Positions 8,500 to 34,634 of a stretch of DNA of 35,033 nt are shown one piece after another. The first letter of the stretch is position 1; each line of letters opens with the position of its first letter. The stretch is from a virus. Under the pieces are notes generated by a model that was given only the letters and a program-made list of their open reading frames with translations, was not told the DNA's origin and did not search any database. The DNA is taken from IMG/VR virus record IMGVR_UViG_3300046463_000297, positions 1-35,033 of that record. The stretch is one strand, 5' to 3'. Made by a program: the position numbers and the translations under genes.

Positions 8500-8666
8500 T
8501 ATTTAGCCTCCTTCGCGACCTTCACGCATTTGTCGGCGTGACCTTCGTCGATCACCTTCTGAATTTCGGCCGCATCACTGATGCGCGTGCCGCGCTCGGT
8601 GAAGCCGAATTGATGCAGCACGACGAGTTCGTAATCGAACGTCGGCGCGTCGTCTTGCTTTGCCAT
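8499..8666 (-). CDS. Short pre-sheath protein (Mu gp38 / DUF2635-like position)
   Basis: A 55-aa protein, MAKQDDAPTFDYELVVLHQF at the N-terminus and EGHADKCVKVAKEAK at the end. Its stop overlaps the sheath ATG by one base (TAATG) and it begins 14 bases after the preceding structural gene. Many Mu-like phages have a 50-80-residue protein exactly here (DUF2635, Mu gp38). I rely on size and position more than on sequence, so the family name is inference. Confidence 0.65.
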   Translation of the reverse strand: MAKQDDAPTFDYELVVLHQFGFTERGTRISDAAEIQKVIDEGHADKCVKVAKEAK

Positions 8667-16939: not shown

Positions 16940-16967
16940 TTGACATATGCTCTCGTTAGGGTAGTAT
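16940..16967 (+). promoter_or_regulatory. Sigma70-like promoter for the plus-strand accessory genes
   Basis: TTGACA (16940-16945), 16 bases, then TAGTAT (16962-16967). It lies in the divergent gap between terS and the 17003 gene. Its -10 region on the opposite strand reads AAATACTACC, a motif repeated at other promoters here. Confidence 0.65.
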
Positions 16968-21740: not shown

Positions 21741-21765
21741 ATCATATCCGCGAGGTAGTTTAGAA
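21741..21765 (-). promoter_or_regulatory. Possible promoter with ACTACC element for the minus accessory operon
   Basis: On the minus strand TCTAAACTACC is followed 7 bases later by TATGAT (21746-21741), 91 bases before the first gene. There is no good -35 box. ACTACC near a TATGAT box also occurs at 28443 and 32493. Confidence 0.4.
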
Positions 21766-21814: not shown

Positions 21815-21844
21815 TTGACTGTTGGAATCTCCGCGCGGTATGAT
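21815..21844 (+). promoter_or_regulatory. Sigma70-like promoter for the 21878-22341 genes
   Basis: TTGACT (21815-21820), 18 bases, TATGAT (21839-21844), then the ATG at 21878 after GCGAGG. Confidence 0.7.
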
Positions 21845-22672: not shown

Positions 22673-22712
22673 AAAAAGAAAGGGGCGCCAGCCTTTTAAG
22701 CTCGCGCCCCTT
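22673..22712 (-). terminator. Terminator of the repressor operon, minus strand
   Basis: On the minus strand AAGGGGCG (22712-22705) pairs with CGCCCCTT (22687-22680) and is followed by TTTCTTTTTG. It faces transcripts coming from the repressor and the 53-aa gene. Confidence 0.72.
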
Positions 22713-22820
22713 CAAGTACTACCCGGAGAATTCGGTACGGATTACTTCAACATGACAAAATTGTAGCCTAGCGTCCCGCCTCCGTCAATACCTTTGAGAG
22801 AGGAAACATCTCCGAACGAT

Positions 22821-22982: not shown

Positions 22983-23087
22983 TTTTCTTCTTTCCTTGGG
23001 TCTTGATCGACGCCGCCGCCGACTGAACAAATCATACCTTTGAGTGATCCGTATGACAAGGAAATCATGCGAGGAAAATAACAGTTT

Positions 23088-23139: not shown

Positions 23140-23577
23140 TTAGCCATGCAACTTTGTCCGCAGTGCGCGCAGGATCGCCGTTTGTGCGGCGAGCGGGTCG
23201 CGTCGGTAAAAGTCGATTGCGGTTTCCAGAAACTCTAATTCGTCCGCGTCGGTAGGGTGCGCGATCGCTGCGGGTTGCTCTGAGTGGCTTGCTTGCACTG
23301 GCGCAATCGTCTCCGGCTCTCGTCTCTTCTCGTGCTGCTGATCCATCCAGCCATGAGGGAGCTTTAGCGCCTCTTCCATGAGTCGGGCCGTCTTCGGGCC
23401 GATGTTCTTATATTGGGTGTTGATGTGCGACATGTACGCCTCGCGCACGCCTAAGCGCTCTCCGAACGCCTTCATCATGCCTTTCTCCGGTGCGCCTGGG
23501 TCGTCGCGCCGAACCTCATCTTTGAAACGCTCGAACAAAACTTTGAAGTTTTTAAAGCGAATTGAATTGATGTCCAT
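23140..23577 (-). CDS. CI-like repressor with N-terminal HTH, no peptidase domain
   Basis: A 145-aa protein. A helix-turn-helix region lies at about residues 33-75 (KAFGERLGVREAYMSHINTQ, ending ALKLPHGWMDQ); the 'LPHGWMD' ending is common in phage and Burkholderia XRE-type repressors. The C-terminus (LEFLETAIDFYRRDPLAAQT) is a helical, probably dimerising tail. No S24 Ser/Lys protease domain is present, so RecA-triggered self-cleavage is not expected. It is divergent from the Cro-position gene, the classical immunity layout. CGGAG lies 8 bases before ATG 23577. Confidence 0.75.
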   Translation of the reverse strand: MDINSIRFKNFKVLFERFKDEVRRDDPGAPEKGMMKAFGERLGVREAYMSHINTQYKNIGPKTARLMEEALKLPHGWMDQQHEKRREPETIAPVQASHSEQPAAIAHPTDADELEFLETAIDFYRRDPLAAQTAILRALRTKLHG

Positions 23578-23707: not shown

Positions 23708-23753
23708 ACTCTCTTTTAGGCTTGCATACTCTCCTGCGGGTGGCTATACTCTC
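23708..23753 (+). promoter_or_regulatory. PR-like early promoter with three ACTCTC repeats at 20-bp spacing
   Basis: TTGCAT (23722-23727), 17 bases, TATACT (23745-23750). ACTCTC occurs at 23708, 23728 and 23748, exactly 20 bp apart. They lie upstream of the -35, just after it, and at the end of the -10. The Cro-position gene starts at 23782 behind GGAGAGAGG. Confidence 0.7.
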
Positions 23754-23781: not shown

Positions 23782-24120
23782 ATGCAAGGCCAAAAGAACA
23801 TGTACGGCGTTCCGGCAGAGTTCGATACCCAGATTCGAGCGCTGCCGGCGCTGACCGCGCACCGGGTCTGGAAGCAGGCAGGGACGCGCGTGATGAGCGC
23901 GATTTGCGAGACGGCTGGCGTGAGCTACAGGGGTTTCGAGATGGTTCGCATTGGACAAAAGAACCTCTCGTATGCAAGCGCCCGCGTGCTCCAGTACGGG
24001 ATTTTTATGTCGCTCGGCGTCGCCGTCGATCTCGATACCCTGTGCAACGCGATCAACTATCGCGAACACCAAGAGGAATTAGAGCGCCAGGCATTCGAAG
24101 CAGCAAGGGCGGGCGCGTGA
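23782..24120 (+). CDS. Cro-position early regulator candidate
   Basis: A 112-aa protein and the first gene of the rightward early operon. The N-terminus is MQGQKNMYGVPAEFDTQIRA. The stretch RVMSAICETAGVSYRGFEMV and RIGQKNLSYASARVLQYGIF (about residues 36-75) could be a helix-turn-helix, but I do not see a standard XRE signature. The rest is helical and charged. Position opposite a CI-like gene suggests a Cro or CII role; sequence alone does not prove it. Its stop overlaps the next GTG (GTGA). Confidence 0.5.
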   Translation: MQGQKNMYGVPAEFDTQIRALPALTAHRVWKQAGTRVMSAICETAGVSYRGFEMVRIGQKNLSYASARVLQYGIFMSLGVAVDLDTLCNAINYREHQEELERQAFEAARAGA

Positions 24121-25775: not shown

Positions 25776-25776
25776 C

Positions 25777-26055
25777 GTGAGCACGAGCACGCAAGCGCTG
25801 ATCGAGCATGAGGCCGAAGGCAAGGCCGATCGGCAGCGCATCGCCGTCGCGCGCTTTCTGCAGACGATCTACCCGGCCGGCGTCACGCGAAACGCCATCT
25901 CGCGCGCGCTTCGCCTTCCAATTCAATCCGTGACCGGTCGCGTGAACGAACTGCTCGCGACTGGCGCCGTCATCGAGCCGGGCGCCAGGATCAAAGACCC
26001 GATCACGCGTCGCACATGCAAGCTCGTCGCGAGCGCGCCGGACCTGTTTTCATGA
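25777..26055 (+). CDS. Winged-helix DNA-binding protein
   Basis: A 92-aa protein with a GTG start one base after the loader stop. It is a compact winged helix: GVTRNAISRALRLPIQSVTG (about residues 33-52) is the HTH, and NELLATGAVIEPGARI is the wing. Such small proteins in phage replication operons may be regulators or helper proteins. An open frame extends upstream over the loader end but lacks support. Confidence 0.65.
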   Translation: MSTSTQALIEHEAEGKADRQRIAVARFLQTIYPAGVTRNAISRALRLPIQSVTGRVNELLATGAVIEPGARIKDPITRRTCKLVASAPDLFS

Positions 26056-26279
26056 CATGGGAGAGGCGCGGCGATACGCGCGACCCGCTCGTGATCCTGA
26101 TCGAGCGCGAGGAACGGAACCCACAATGCAAACATTGCGTGTGGTCGATCGGTAAAACGGAATTGCTAGGGGATTGGATATGCGCGAAGGAACGAGTAAT
26201 GCGACATCGGTGCGGCGAGTTCAGCCCTTTGCAAGCGTACATCGAGCGCTCGAAAGCATTTTCGAAACGCTCGCACTGA
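26052..26279 (+). CDS. Small Cys-rich protein
   Basis: A 75-aa protein, MTWERRGDTRDPLVILIERE at the start, with NPQCKHCVWSIG (about 26-37), WICAKE and RHRCGEF, a CxxC...C...C zinc-type set. The ATG overlaps the previous stop (ATGA). Its last 100 bases overlap the start of the HTH gene in another frame, which is longer than other overlaps here. Similar 'C.hC........C' proteins occur in many phage early operons. Function unknown. Confidence 0.65.
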   Translation: MTWERRGDTRDPLVILIEREERNPQCKHCVWSIGKTELLGDWICAKERVMRHRCGEFSPLQAYIERSKAFSKRSH

Positions 26280-26785
26280 TCGAAGCCGTCAAGGTTCCCG
26301 GCTATTCCGAGTCGGTCGCGCGCTCGACCGTCACCGAGAAAGTCGAGTGGACAGACCGAGTGACCGACGCCGCCTGGGCGATGCAAGCGCTCGACTCGAC
26401 CCTGAGCGCCATCGAGCGCGCCGCGGTCGTCGCACGCTATCACCGCGACCCAGGCACATTGCGACGGTATGAGGGGCGCCGATGGAGTGCCGCAAAGGCC
26501 GACGACGCCGATCAGAAGCACGCGCACGCGCTCGCGCTGCTCAAGCTGCACCTGACACACCTTCACGCGAAAGGCGACCTCCTGGAAGCCGTGATAGAGC
26601 GCGAGTTCGTGCACGGCGAATCCTATATGGAGACGACGCGCCAAATCGGCGAGCGTTTGAGCGTCGGAAAATCCTCTGTCGACCGCCTGGCGCAGAAGGT
26701 CACGCGCGCCGTGCACTCTCTCGAAGTGACCGCGCACTCAGCGCTCAAAGAGCGTTTCGCGGAGCTTGGATTCGTGCCGCGTTAA
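26180..26785 (+). CDS. HTH regulator, possible late-gene or antitermination protein
   Basis: About 201 aa. The C-terminal 45 residues hold a helix-turn-helix (TTRQIGERLSVGKSSVDRLA, about 155-174), preceded by a helical body (HAHALALLKLHLTHLHAKGD). Gene position at the end of the replication operon is where phages often keep Q-like or sigma-like late regulators, but I see no decisive signature. The start is uncertain: ATG 26180 has AGGGGATTGG upstream, TTG 26174 and GTG 26210 are alternatives; all overlap the Cys-rich gene. Confidence 0.6.
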   Translation: MREGTSNATSVRRVQPFASVHRALESIFETLALIEAVKVPGYSESVARSTVTEKVEWTDRVTDAAWAMQALDSTLSAIERAAVVARYHRDPGTLRRYEGRRWSAAKADDADQKHAHALALLKLHLTHLHAKGDLLEAVIEREFVHGESYMETTRQIGERLSVGKSSVDRLAQKVTRAVHSLEVTAHSALKERFAELGFVPR

Positions 26786-26795
26786 TTTCATCTCT

Positions 26796-26839
26796 CTCGG
26801 ATAGAAAGTGCTTGACACTACATATCCGAGTGATATGAT
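26796..26839 (+). promoter_or_regulatory. Strong sigma70 promoter with an inverted-repeat operator
   Basis: TTGACA (26812-26817), 16 bases, TATGAT (26834-26839). CTCGGATA (26796-26803) and TATCCGAG (26823-26830) are exact 8-bp arms flanking the -35. It drives the recombination genes from 26883. Confidence 0.75.
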
Positions 26840-28417: not shown

Positions 28418-28435
28418 CGCGGGTGTTTTTTTCTG

Positions 28436-28478
28436 TTGCATGACTACCTTTGCGTGAGTATGATTCCGCAAAGGTAGT
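28436..28478 (+). promoter_or_regulatory. Promoter fully covered by a 12-bp-arm palindromic operator
   Basis: TTGCAT (28436-28441), 17 bases, TATGAT (28459-28464). ACTACCTTTGCG (28443-28454) and its exact complement CGCAAAGGTAGT (28467-28478) surround the -10 box with a 12-base gap. Half of it, CCGCAAAGGTA, recurs over the promoter at 30064-30074. Confidence 0.78.
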
Positions 28479-28494
28479 TCAACCGGAGAGGAAA

Positions 28495-29250
28495 ATGACA
28501 ACAAGCATCACCGGGTTTGACCCGATCGCCGCCAGCGTTGCGGCACTCAAAGCAAAGTTCGAGAACGTCACCTATGACGTGACGACGACGGACGGCATGA
28601 AAGCGGCGAAGGCCGATCGCGCGGAACTGAAAGAATTCCGCCTGGAAGTCGAAGCCGTGCGCGTGCGCCTGAAGGAACCGCATCTGCTCGCGGGCCGCGA
28701 AATCGACGATCACGCGAAAACGCTGACGAAGGAAATCACGACACTCGAAGCCGCGCGCGACGAAGTGATTCGCGCCGAAGAGCGCCGCAAAGCGCAAATC
28801 AAAGCGGAGAGGGAGCGCGCCGAGCGCGATCGCATCGCCGCCGAAGAGCGCGCGAAGGCCGCGGAGCGCGAAGAGCAGTTGCGCCGCGAGAACGAAGCGC
28901 TGCGCGCGCAGATTGAAGCCGCGAAGGCGCTCGAACCGGCGGTCGTGACGGCGCTCGACGACGGCACGTTCGAACCGGTCGCGACTGGCGTTCCGGCCGC
29001 GCACGATCCCGCGCTGCTCGACCTGATGGCTGACGACGGCTTTCGCCCGAGTAAGCCCGCGGCGCCCTTATTCAACGCTCGCGCACCGCAATTCGAGTCG
29101 CGCGCCGTGCGCCGGCTGTCGTTCGACAGCTTGCCGACCGCGAACGAAGTCGCCGCCGCTCTGAGCGCGCACGCGAAGCAACGCACGAACGTCCGACACG
29201 TTACAGACGTGCTCGAAGCAATCCGCTCGATCATGAGCAAGGGGGAATGA
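28495..29250 (+). CDS. DUF1351-like coiled-coil protein (recombination-associated)
   Basis: A 251-aa protein. The N-terminus (AALKAKFENVTYDVTTTDGM, residues 15-34, then KADRAELKEFRLEVEAVR) resembles DUF1351-type proteins that accompany phage annealing proteins. The middle is a long charged coiled coil (RAEERRKAQIKAERERAERD and on). The end (LPTANEVAAALSAHAKQRTN) is a separate small helical domain. It has its own regulated promoter. Role unknown; context suggests DNA recombination. Confidence 0.68.
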   Translation: MTTSITGFDPIAASVAALKAKFENVTYDVTTTDGMKAAKADRAELKEFRLEVEAVRVRLKEPHLLAGREIDDHAKTLTKEITTLEAARDEVIRAEERRKAQIKAERERAERDRIAAEERAKAAEREEQLRRENEALRAQIEAAKALEPAVVTALDDGTFEPVATGVPAAHDPALLDLMADDGFRPSKPAAPLFNARAPQFESRAVRRLSFDSLPTANEVAAALSAHAKQRTNVRHVTDVLEAIRSIMSKGE

Positions 29251-29831: not shown

Positions 29832-30053
29832 ATGACCGAACAAACGAAGAACTCAGCCGAGGCATTGATCGAACTGCGCGCAGCGCTGCACAAGCTCGAC
29901 CAGTCGATGACGAGCGGCGTGAATGCGGAGAGCGCGAAACTCGCCGCAGAAGTCGCGCGCCTCGCCGTTACGCTGGAAAACATCGTTGTCGACGAGCGCT
30001 GCGAAACTCTCGCCAAGCAAATTTTGGCGCATGCGGAACGCATCTCCGCTTGA
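29832..30053 (+). CDS. Small helical protein, unknown
   Basis: A 73-aa protein, MTEQTKNSAEALIELRAALH at the start; fully helical, probably a helical hairpin. It starts 1 base after the previous stop region, and its stop lies inside the next promoter's -35 box. No family recognised. Confidence 0.55.
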   Translation: MTEQTKNSAEALIELRAALHKLDQSMTSGVNAESAKLAAEVARLAVTLENIVVDERCETLAKQILAHAERISA

Positions 30054-30078
30054 CGGTATCGCACCGCAAAGGTATTCT
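30050..30078 (+). promoter_or_regulatory. Promoter before the exonuclease gene
   Basis: TTGACG (30050-30055), 17 bases, TATTCT (30073-30078). CCGCAAAGGTA (30064-30074), identical to one arm of the 28467 palindrome, lies on the spacer and -10. Confidence 0.6.
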
Positions 30079-30096
30079 ATCAACGTCGTCACAGCA

Positions 30097-30124
30097 GGAG
30101 CGCCTTTAGAGCGCTCCCATTTTT
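30097..30124 (+). terminator. Leader terminator / attenuator before the exonuclease gene
   Basis: GGAGCGC (30097-30103), 7-base loop, GCGCTCC (30111-30117), then CATTTTT. It lies downstream of the 30050 promoter and 30 bases before the exonuclease ATG, so transcripts from that promoter meet it after about 40 bases. Confidence 0.72.
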
Positions 30125-30153
30125 CGACTACACAACTACCCGAGAGAGATGAT

Positions 30154-32488: not shown

Positions 32489-32523
32489 AAATACTACCTT
32501 TTCGAGAGCAAAGCCTGTATGAT
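32489..32523 (+). promoter_or_regulatory. ACTACC-type promoter before the HNH gene
   Basis: AAATACTACC (32489-32498), 19 bases, TATGAT (32518-32523), no good -35. GAGGTAG (32534-32540), near the HNH start, is the opposite half site. CGAGAGCA also follows the ACTACC here, as on the minus strand at 16969. Confidence 0.5.
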
Positions 32524-32544
32524 TAATCACGTTGAGGTAGCAGA

Positions 32545-32880: not shown

Positions 32881-33281
32881 AGTCGATCAGCACACAACAG
32901 ATTTTGAATTTCATGCGCGAAGGTCAGGCGTACTCGCGCGCATCGTTCTATCGCGAGTTTCCGGACGTCGACACGAAGCTCGTGAACGACGCGCTGCTAC
33001 TGCTCACGAGCCGCGGCGAGATTTGGAACGGGAACATGCTGACTTACGTCAAGTTCGCGCCGAAGAGCACGAAGGCGAGCACAGTGCCGCAGATTTGCCC
33101 CTCGCACACTTGGGGCGATCTGACCGGGTACGAATCGAACCTGCGGCGATTCCGCGGCACTGCCGAGGCAACGCGCGGCGAAGGGTATGCGGCGCCGGAG
33201 TTCGGCGGGAACGCGATGACCGGGCGCGCGAGCAATGAGAGTTTCCAGCAACGCGCGGTCTCTATTCGGGTGATGCAATGA
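32877..33281 (+). CDS. Small winged-helix-like phage protein, unknown
   Basis: A 134-aa protein with a GTG start overlapping the HNH stop (GTGA). It begins VKSISTQQILNFMREGQAYS and is helical with a possible winged-helix (ALLLLTSRGEIWNGNMLTYV), then a Thr/Ser/Gly-rich, perhaps disordered tail. Gene position in the nuclease operon suggests a DNA role. No family recognised. Confidence 0.6.
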   Translation: MKSISTQQILNFMREGQAYSRASFYREFPDVDTKLVNDALLLLTSRGEIWNGNMLTYVKFAPKSTKASTVPQICPSHTWGDLTGYESNLRRFRGTAEATRGEGYAAPEFGGNAMTGRASNESFQQRAVSIRVMQ

Positions 33282-33631
33282 ACATTTACCGGCACAAATT
33301 CATCGCGGCATGTCCCGCGAACGGCGCGCAAATCGCTTACGAGCTCGTGATCGAGACCGAGCAAATGATTCGCGTCGAGCACATCACGACAGCCGCCGCG
33401 CTTCACAAATCCGGCTATCACGAGGAAATCGCCGACGACTTCGCGAAGCGCTTCGGCGGACGACAAACCATGCGCGCCCATCATCACGGCGTCGACATCG
33501 AGACGCAGCGGGGATTCGATGCGCCATGCGGCGCAAAGCTGACGCAACGCGTTCAGGTCGGCGCGACAGTGTTCGAGAAAGGGACTTCGGGCGAACTGGC
33601 TGTCGCCGCCATCAAAAAGGGTTCGGCGTAA
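33278..33631 (+). CDS. Phage protein, unknown
   Basis: A 117-aa protein, MNIYRHKFIAACPANGAQIA at the start; beta-rich first half (AYELVIETEQMIRVEHI), then a helix, HHHGVDIETQRG, and a short end. The ATG overlaps the previous stop (ATGA) and its stop overlaps the XRE gene start (TAATG). No family recognised. Confidence 0.6.
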   Translation: MNIYRHKFIAACPANGAQIAYELVIETEQMIRVEHITTAAALHKSGYHEEIADDFAKRFGGRQTMRAHHHGVDIETQRGFDAPCGAKLTQRVQVGATVFEKGTSGELAVAAIKKGSA

Positions 33632-33876
33632 TGGCTACCGTGAAAATAACCACCGTCGCACAGTGGCCGGAAGCGCCCCTATGCGTAGGCGAGCGCCTTC
33701 GAGGTCTGCGGGTAGAGCGCGGGCTGCTTCAGTCGACCGTCGCGAAGGCCGTAGGCTTGCAGCCGAAGACCATCGGCGGTTTTGAGCGAAGCGCGTATGA
33801 CCCAAGCTGGAAAAATTTCACCGCGCTCGCCAAATTTTACGGTGTTTCACTTGACTGGCTGGCGGGGCTGGAATGA
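33631..33876 (+). CDS. XRE-type HTH regulator
   Basis: An 81-aa protein that is essentially one HTH_3 domain: ERLRGLRVERGLLQSTVAKA (about residues 21-40), VGLQPKTIGGFERSAYDPSW, and ALAKFYGVSLDWLAGLE, the normal ending of this family. It is a small DNA-binding repressor or modulator, separate from the CI-like gene, and might act on the ACTACC-type promoters. It overlaps the TGT-like gene (ATGA). Confidence 0.8.
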   Translation: MATVKITTVAQWPEAPLCVGERLRGLRVERGLLQSTVAKAVGLQPKTIGGFERSAYDPSWKNFTALAKFYGVSLDWLAGLE

Positions 33877-34634
33877 TCCACTATCACGGCTTGCCGATCA
33901 CGCCTGCAACGGCGGCAGTAGAAGCGATTTCCGGCGGTCACGCGTTCGTGTCGTTCCGCCATCCGGGGCAACTCGGCGTCGCGATTGAGTGCGCGCAAAC
34001 CTTCGCGGTTGACAACGGCGCTTTCAGTGCATGGCGAAGCGGAAACCCGGTCACAGACTGGCGCCCGTTTTACGAATGGGTCGCCGAACTGCACCGATAC
34101 CCTGCGTTTGACTTCGCGGTGATTCCGGATGTGATCGACGGCGACGAGGCCGCGAACGACGCGCTGCTCGACGAGTGGCCCTGGAAGGATAGCGCCCCCT
34201 GGATCGGCGCCCCTGTGTGGCACTTGCACGAGAGCCTTGAGCGGCTTGAGCGCATGGCGTTTAAATGGCCGCGCATTTGTCTCGGCAGTTCTGGCGAGTT
34301 CGCATCAGTCGGCACGACCGCCTGGTATGCGCGCATGGCTGAAGCGATGAACGTTCTGTGCGACAAAAGCGGCCGGCCGATTTGCAAGATTCACGGTCTG
34401 CGCATGCTTGATCCGGACGTTTTCACGCGCTTTCCATTCGCCAGCGCAGACAGCACGAACATCGGTCAGAACATCGGCATCGATAGCAAATGGCGCGGCC
34501 CGTACACACCGGCCAGCAAAGAGGCGAGAGCGCGAGTGATGCGCGAGCGGATTGAGGCGCACCAATCGCCGATGTTTTGGAATCGCGAAGTGGCGCCGAT
34601 CCAGGCGGAATTTACTTTGGAGTTGGCAGCATGA
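33873..34634 (+). CDS. Probable TGT/DpdA-like enzyme (tRNA or DNA modification)
   Basis: A 253-aa protein. The pattern of short motifs on a likely TIM barrel, DNGAF (47-51), IPDVIDGD (84-91), HLHE (117-120), CLGSSGE (136-142), KIHGLRM (172-178) and SADSTN (191-196), resembles phage proteins related to tRNA-guanine transglycosylase and DpdA, which insert 7-deazaguanine bases in tRNA or DNA. No other genes of that pathway are in the window, so the enzyme may use a host precursor. This is a family guess from remembered patterns, not proof. Confidence 0.45.
   Translation: MIHYHGLPITPATAAVEAISGGHAFVSFRHPGQLGVAIECAQTFAVDNGAFSAWRSGNPVTDWRPFYEWVAELHRYPAFDFAVIPDVIDGDEAANDALLDEWPWKDSAPWIGAPVWHLHESLERLERMAFKWPRICLGSSGEFASVGTTAWYARMAEAMNVLCDKSGRPICKIHGLRMLDPDVFTRFPFASADSTNIGQNIGIDSKWRGPYTPASKEARARVMRERIEAHQSPMFWNREVAPIQAEFTLELAA

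Follow-up and report, generated by a model that had tools for sequence, protein, structure and literature searches.

A perfect palindrome over a phage promoter is probably a double operator within a wider repressor regulon

We find that a perfect palindrome at positions 28443-28478 of the window (the whole stretch of 35,033 nucleotides of viral DNA analysed here, IMG/VR record IMGVR_UViG_3300046463_000297) is real and probably functions as a double operator, and comparison with related phages gives us fair confidence that it would serve an immunity repressor with a regulon of known type. About ten similar sites lie across the promoters of the phage, and all of its genome is probably kept silent by one repressor. 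This type of control is already known, but in this case the binding code is legible directly from the sequence, providing a readable operator code for an uncultured temperate phage family. With that code, sequence data suffice to call promoters, the targets of the repressor and superinfection groups. The phage also offers a compact test case, in which a small peptidase-less repressor would silence about ten promoters by means of paired and single dyads.

The palindrome and its promoter

The segment 28436-28478 reads TTGCATGACTACCTTTGCGTGAGTATGATTCCGCAAAGGTAGT. As an earlier note on this DNA had observed, its left arm, ACTACCTTTGCG (28443-28454), is complemented exactly by its right arm, CGCAAAGGTAGT (28467-28478), and the two are set around a TATGAT box, most of which lies in the 12-nt spacer between them (TGAGTATGATTC), and among inverted repeats with spacers of up to 40 nt this is the longest perfect one in the window. 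The promoter concerned, P28436 (plus strand), comprises a -35 element TTGCAT (28436-28441), a hexamer identical to that of the promoter PR, and a -10 element TATGAT (28459-28464) at a spacing of 17 bp; because its -35 matches the consensus at 3 of 6 positions, P28436 was missing from the promoter scan. The intergenic gap that holds the palindrome extends for 77 bp (28418-28494) from ssb to the next gene (28495-29250, plus strand), which comes after the Erf and SSB recombination genes and matches PHROG 16469 and 17928, phage families of unknown function.

Compared with related phages, the palindrome resolves into two operator sequences. OpA (28443-28459, plus strand, ACTACC-TTTGC-GTGAGT; PWM score 14.0, rank 5 of 35,017) consists of the left arm plus 5 bp and occupies the spacer of P28436, and OpB (28462-28478, minus strand, ACTACC-TTTGC-GGAATC; PWM score 11.4, rank 9) corresponds to the right arm and spans the end of the -10 to the start site. 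The two are mutually inverted and their centres lie 19 bp apart. Their cores are identical (TTTGC), a point against the operator reading, as the model sets no such requirement. The proposal that a dyad-binding phage regulator would cover this promoter is retained, with two inverted 17-bp operators in place of the single dimer site first envisaged. Judging from the comparison of sequences, significance attaches to the 17-bp dyad and not to the 36-bp repeat, and eye-catching palindromes of this kind are best interpreted against relatives.

When viral contigs were scanned for the palindrome, two phage records proved nearly identical there (G001 and G002). The scan also returned L004, whose exact palindrome we judged to be a coincidence: its arms are 9 nt apart, its genes are unrelated and the phage has 46% G+C. 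Leaving that coincidence aside, the palindrome is confined to the window, G001 and G002, apart from a degenerate version before a dUTPase gene in L037. Further relatives were found via the protein encoded at the cro position, for a total of roughly a dozen distinct records, in which this protein is 65-96% identical. Another palindrome, perfect or nearly so (CAATACTACCT...AGGTAGTATTG), occurs in L036 (18085), L038 (15240), L041 (18423) and L045 (18769); in three of the four it stands before a cytosine-methyltransferase-like gene, and its right arm coincides with the -10.

An operator code across the phage promoters

Comparison of promoters among about a dozen related phage contigs gives an operator consensus in the form of a 17-bp dyad, RCTMYC-N5-GRKAGY, of which ACTACC, found at varying positions in most of the relatives' promoters when these are lined up gene by gene, is one half. 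Exact matches to the consensus occur twice in the window (16949 and 32493, both intergenic; 0.07 expected), and 31 times in 12 related records versus 4 times for a reversed-pattern control, with corresponding counts of 26 and 0 in early-region stretches. With a PWM trained on sites of relatives only (strings identical to window sites dropped and the palindrome absent from training; the relatives share ancestry with the window, and the training set is to that extent not wholly independent), 13 matches in the window score at least 10, versus 1.9 expected in Markov sequence, and both palindrome arms fall within the top nine of the 35,017 scored positions. Twelve of these 13 matches are intergenic, in a window that is 89% coding and 11% intergenic, and the thirteenth (15068), which has an in-frame ATG just past the site, may be intergenic as well. 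Four matches (15068, 16979, 30135 and 32525) overlap Shine-Dalgarno sequences, which may be the source of their scores and makes them less certain; the other nine are all at promoters.

The conservation of these sites over the phage family is also informative. Half-sites are held at 0.86-1.0 and the central five bases drift at 0.51-0.78 (half/core/half 0.93/0.58/0.87 at PR, 1.00/0.78/1.00 at P16940 and 0.93/0.51/0.86 at Po25678), the pattern expected of a dimer touching two half-sites. Two other descriptions of the same sequences were rejected: a conserved TACCTTTGMG box, which is a half-site plus the core of the dyad and whose copies at 23035 and 30065 are the weaker sites, and a special -10 promoter of the CAAAGGTA type, which fails at 28443 and 22787. 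We found no description of RCTMYC-N5-GRKAGY as an operator in the literature searched, and a pattern scan of viral contigs returned, outside this phage family, only one coding stretch of low-G+C phages. Operators were not above control at distant repressor loci in genomes (L023-L035, 31-36% identity). In L022, a contig labelled Mucilaginibacter that may represent a misbinned phage belonging to this group, an exact operator (GCTACCGTGGCGGTAGT, 8599-8615) lies downstream of a repressor 36% identical.

At PR (TTGCAT 23722-23727, TATACT 23745-23750, plus strand, 17-bp spacer), the operator (23728-23744, plus strand, ACTCTC-CTGCG-GGTGGC; PWM score 11.3, rank 10) fills exactly the 17-bp spacer and is conserved in all 11 phages compared, so that P28436, with its TTGCAT, its 17-bp spacer and an operator within, repeats the layout of PR. 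Examined for the three tandem operators of a lambda-type OR, PR shows one strong site, with flanking ACTCTC boxes that score only 5.8 (23708) and 0.0 (23748). The operator is also present at about eight promoters besides P28436 and PR. It lies in the spacer of P16940 (TTGACA 16940, TAGTAT 16962) as an exact consensus (16949-16965, plus strand), in that of P21815 (TTGACT 21815, TATGAT 21839; site 21826-21842, plus strand, PWM score 9.2, part of a family of 18 related sites) and in that of P23059 (TTGTCA 23059-23054, TATGAT 23036-23031; site 23033-23049, minus strand, PWM score 9.4, rank 16), which sits upstream of a small ORF. Other copies cover a leftward -10 (TATGAT 21741-21746; site 21743-21759, minus strand, PWM score 13.1, rank 6), the upstream edge of the -35 of a minus-strand sRNA promoter (TTGACG 22788-22783, TACAAT 22765-22760; site 22787-22803, minus strand, PWM score 14.9, rank 4) and the position just upstream of P26812 (TTGACA 26812, TATGAT 26834; site 26789-26805, plus strand, PWM score 10.3), where a second, weaker site scores 8.0 (26821-26837). 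At P32518 (-10 TATGAT 32518-32523, plus strand), an exact consensus (32493-32509, plus strand, ACTACC-TTTTC-GAGAGC; PWM score 15.2), conserved in the phage family, lies over the -35 region, and a second site (32525-32541) scores 11.8.

The earlier note had noticed that part of one arm recurs at the next promoter and had suggested that one regulator may control both units. The recurrence is confirmed (CCGCAAAGGTA is found again at 30064-30074, inside TTGACG-17-TATTCT) and the idea of one regulator for several units is upheld; its restriction to two promoters is not, the regulon being far wider and including PR. The 30064 copy is itself a weak member (30060-30076, minus strand, in P30050; PWM score 6.1, rank 43): the CGCAAAGG stretch is unconserved in relatives, which retain only ACC-N5-GGTA at this site. 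In the same place (30050-30126) an intrinsic terminator comes no more than about 40 nt after the promoter, the whole preceding an exonuclease-like gene; this would be a short RNA or an attenuator, and relatives keep the arrangement with a stem that is changed but intact.

Candidate regulators and alternative readings

Divergent repressor and cro-position genes flank PR. The CI-like repressor (23140-23577, minus strand, 145 aa) has an N-terminal HTH and belongs to the repressor family PHROG 12107; no peptidase domain match was found in it, and its modelled C-terminus consists of two helices only. Its recognition helix, REAYMSHI, is nearly invariant, with single changes, in 11 homologues that over their full length are as little as 57-66% identical to the repressor of the window. 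The Cro-position protein (23782-24120, plus strand) is all-helical and HTH-like in a low-confidence model. We favour the CI-like repressor, which appears the likeliest operator binder, because its recognition helix is constant and the corresponding Cro-position segment varies, whereas the operator code stays; the two proteins likely share operators. Both had been named as candidates in the earlier note, along with an XRE protein (33631-33876, plus strand, HTH_3), which we rejected as shared regulator: it is missing from three related records (G001, G002 and G003), all of which have operators and two of which have the palindrome. A longer stretch with the XRE gene and its neighbours (33278-34634) is missing at this place in G001 and G003. 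A wHTH protein (25776-26055) was likewise dismissed as the regulator, having no match in L048, where operators persist. A conserved protein (26180-26785, plus strand) has, towards the C-terminus, an HTH like that of sigma region 4 and resembles an antiterminator Q by eye; it has no family match in PHROGs or Pfam.

We propose that a dimer of the CI-like repressor recognises the 17-bp dyads. At P28436, OpA in the spacer (28443-28459) would take one dimer and the inverted OpB, which lies over the start site and the end of the -10 (28462-28478), would take another, the two possibly paired as a tetramer and together excluding RNA polymerase. In a lysogen, the repressor would shut the early promoters via some ten further sites, PR included, and upon its loss or upon induction those promoters would open together. 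What the comparisons show directly is the sites, how enriched they are, where they lie in promoters and how they are conserved; from this we infer the identity of the binder, its dimeric or tetrameric state and its action by repression rather than activation.

It is unlikely, in our estimation, that the Cro-position protein is instead the main operator binder, lowering the early promoters in the lytic cycle, with the sites of the CI-like repressor elsewhere. The PR transcript codes directly for this protein, every relative has it (65-96% identity) and, besides its predicted all-helical fold, it gives weak HTH matches that include 434 Cro; moreover, the PR half-site (GGTGGC versus GATAGC) tracks the Cro type, and CI and Cro may well have common sites, as in lambda. 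However, its presumed recognition segment differs between groups (SYRGFEMVRIGQ changing to RYESFALVRIGK), yet the unlinked P16940 operators keep identical half-sites, and the covariation at PR may be linkage, since PR and cro are adjacent. A dual switch, which we would also regard as doubtful, could combine repression at spacer-filling sites (PR, P28436 and P16940) with activation at P32518 and Po25678, two promoters with a poor -35 in which the distance from ACTACC to the -10 is constant at 25 bp, and with a repressor-controlled sRNA (22673-22753) pairing with early-gene ribosome sites as a second layer.

Two further readings dispense with a DNA-binding protein at the palindrome. That it acts as an RNA hairpin in read-through from the ssb operon, hiding or exposing the ribosome site of gene 28495, seems very improbable: the RNA would fold into a long stem just upstream of GGAGAGG (-23.2 kcal/mol, z -4.1), but any perfect inverted repeat necessarily folds, that ribosome site is not occluded by the stem, and the half-sites recur at promoters upstream of start sites, often as single copies without a hairpin. 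At the 32493 promoter of L036, GATAGC even spoils RNA pairing with CTACCT yet fits the operator code. The palindrome had also been described as far beyond chance, and for the window as a whole this does not hold: among 200 Markov-1 random windows, a perfect repeat with 12-bp arms and a spacer of 3-40 nt was present in 25%, at a mean of 0.4 per window, so that about one in four windows of equal size and composition should contain a comparable repeat. For the 77-bp promoter gap the claim does stand, none of 20,000 local shuffles having produced such a repeat. Both arms fit an operator code learnt elsewhere; a functionless chance repeat is thus extremely improbable.

Likeness to known systems and a nearby sRNA

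The double operator of an immunity repressor, our preferred reading, has several precedents. The operators of lambda CI and Cro are 17-bp dyads at OR and OL, and here, too, a 17-bp dyad lies in PR between divergent genes for an HTH repressor and a cro-position protein. In contrast to lambda, in which the sites are confined to OR and OL, operators are found here over many promoters, and the 145-aa repressor lacks the LexA-type self-cleaving peptidase domain; strictly speaking, it is therefore no lambda CI. Phage P1 has paired, inverted 'bivalent' operators around promoters, which would appear to be the closest likeness to the 28443 palindrome. The C1 repressor of P1 binds 22 dispersed 17-bp operators of asymmetric consensus (PMC8546580); the proposed arrangement resembles it in having one immunity repressor with many operators genome-wide at lytic promoters, and differs in that its operator is a symmetric dyad.

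The nearest solved relative of the CI-like repressor is Rep of Salmonella phage SPC32H (5d50/5d4z), the homology lying mainly in the HTH region (profile E 1.2e-4 to 5d50, which also tops the fold search). Rep is a tetramer on palindromic DNA sites and is undone by an antirepressor (PMC9638917), and a Rep-like tetramer would suit the paired operators here. In mycobacteriophage L5, one repressor acts at more than 20 genome sites, the stoperators; each is an asymmetric 13-mer to which a monomer binds, and in many cases they are outside promoters (PMC9283540). One repressor with many sites is likewise what we propose from the present sequences, although here, unlike in L5, the sites are dyads overlapping promoters.

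A candidate phage sRNA of about 81 nt (22673-22753, minus strand) follows a strong promoter (TTGACG-17-TACAAT), ends in a GC-rich terminator with a T-run and is present in all 14 phage stretches compared; a search of Rfam gave a sub-threshold match only. Among nine aligned sequences, its upper stem shows changes on both sides from GC to CG, and its stretch UUCUCCGGGUAGU pairs, above shuffled seeds, with the ribosome sites of cro, 24996, erf, 28495 and exo.
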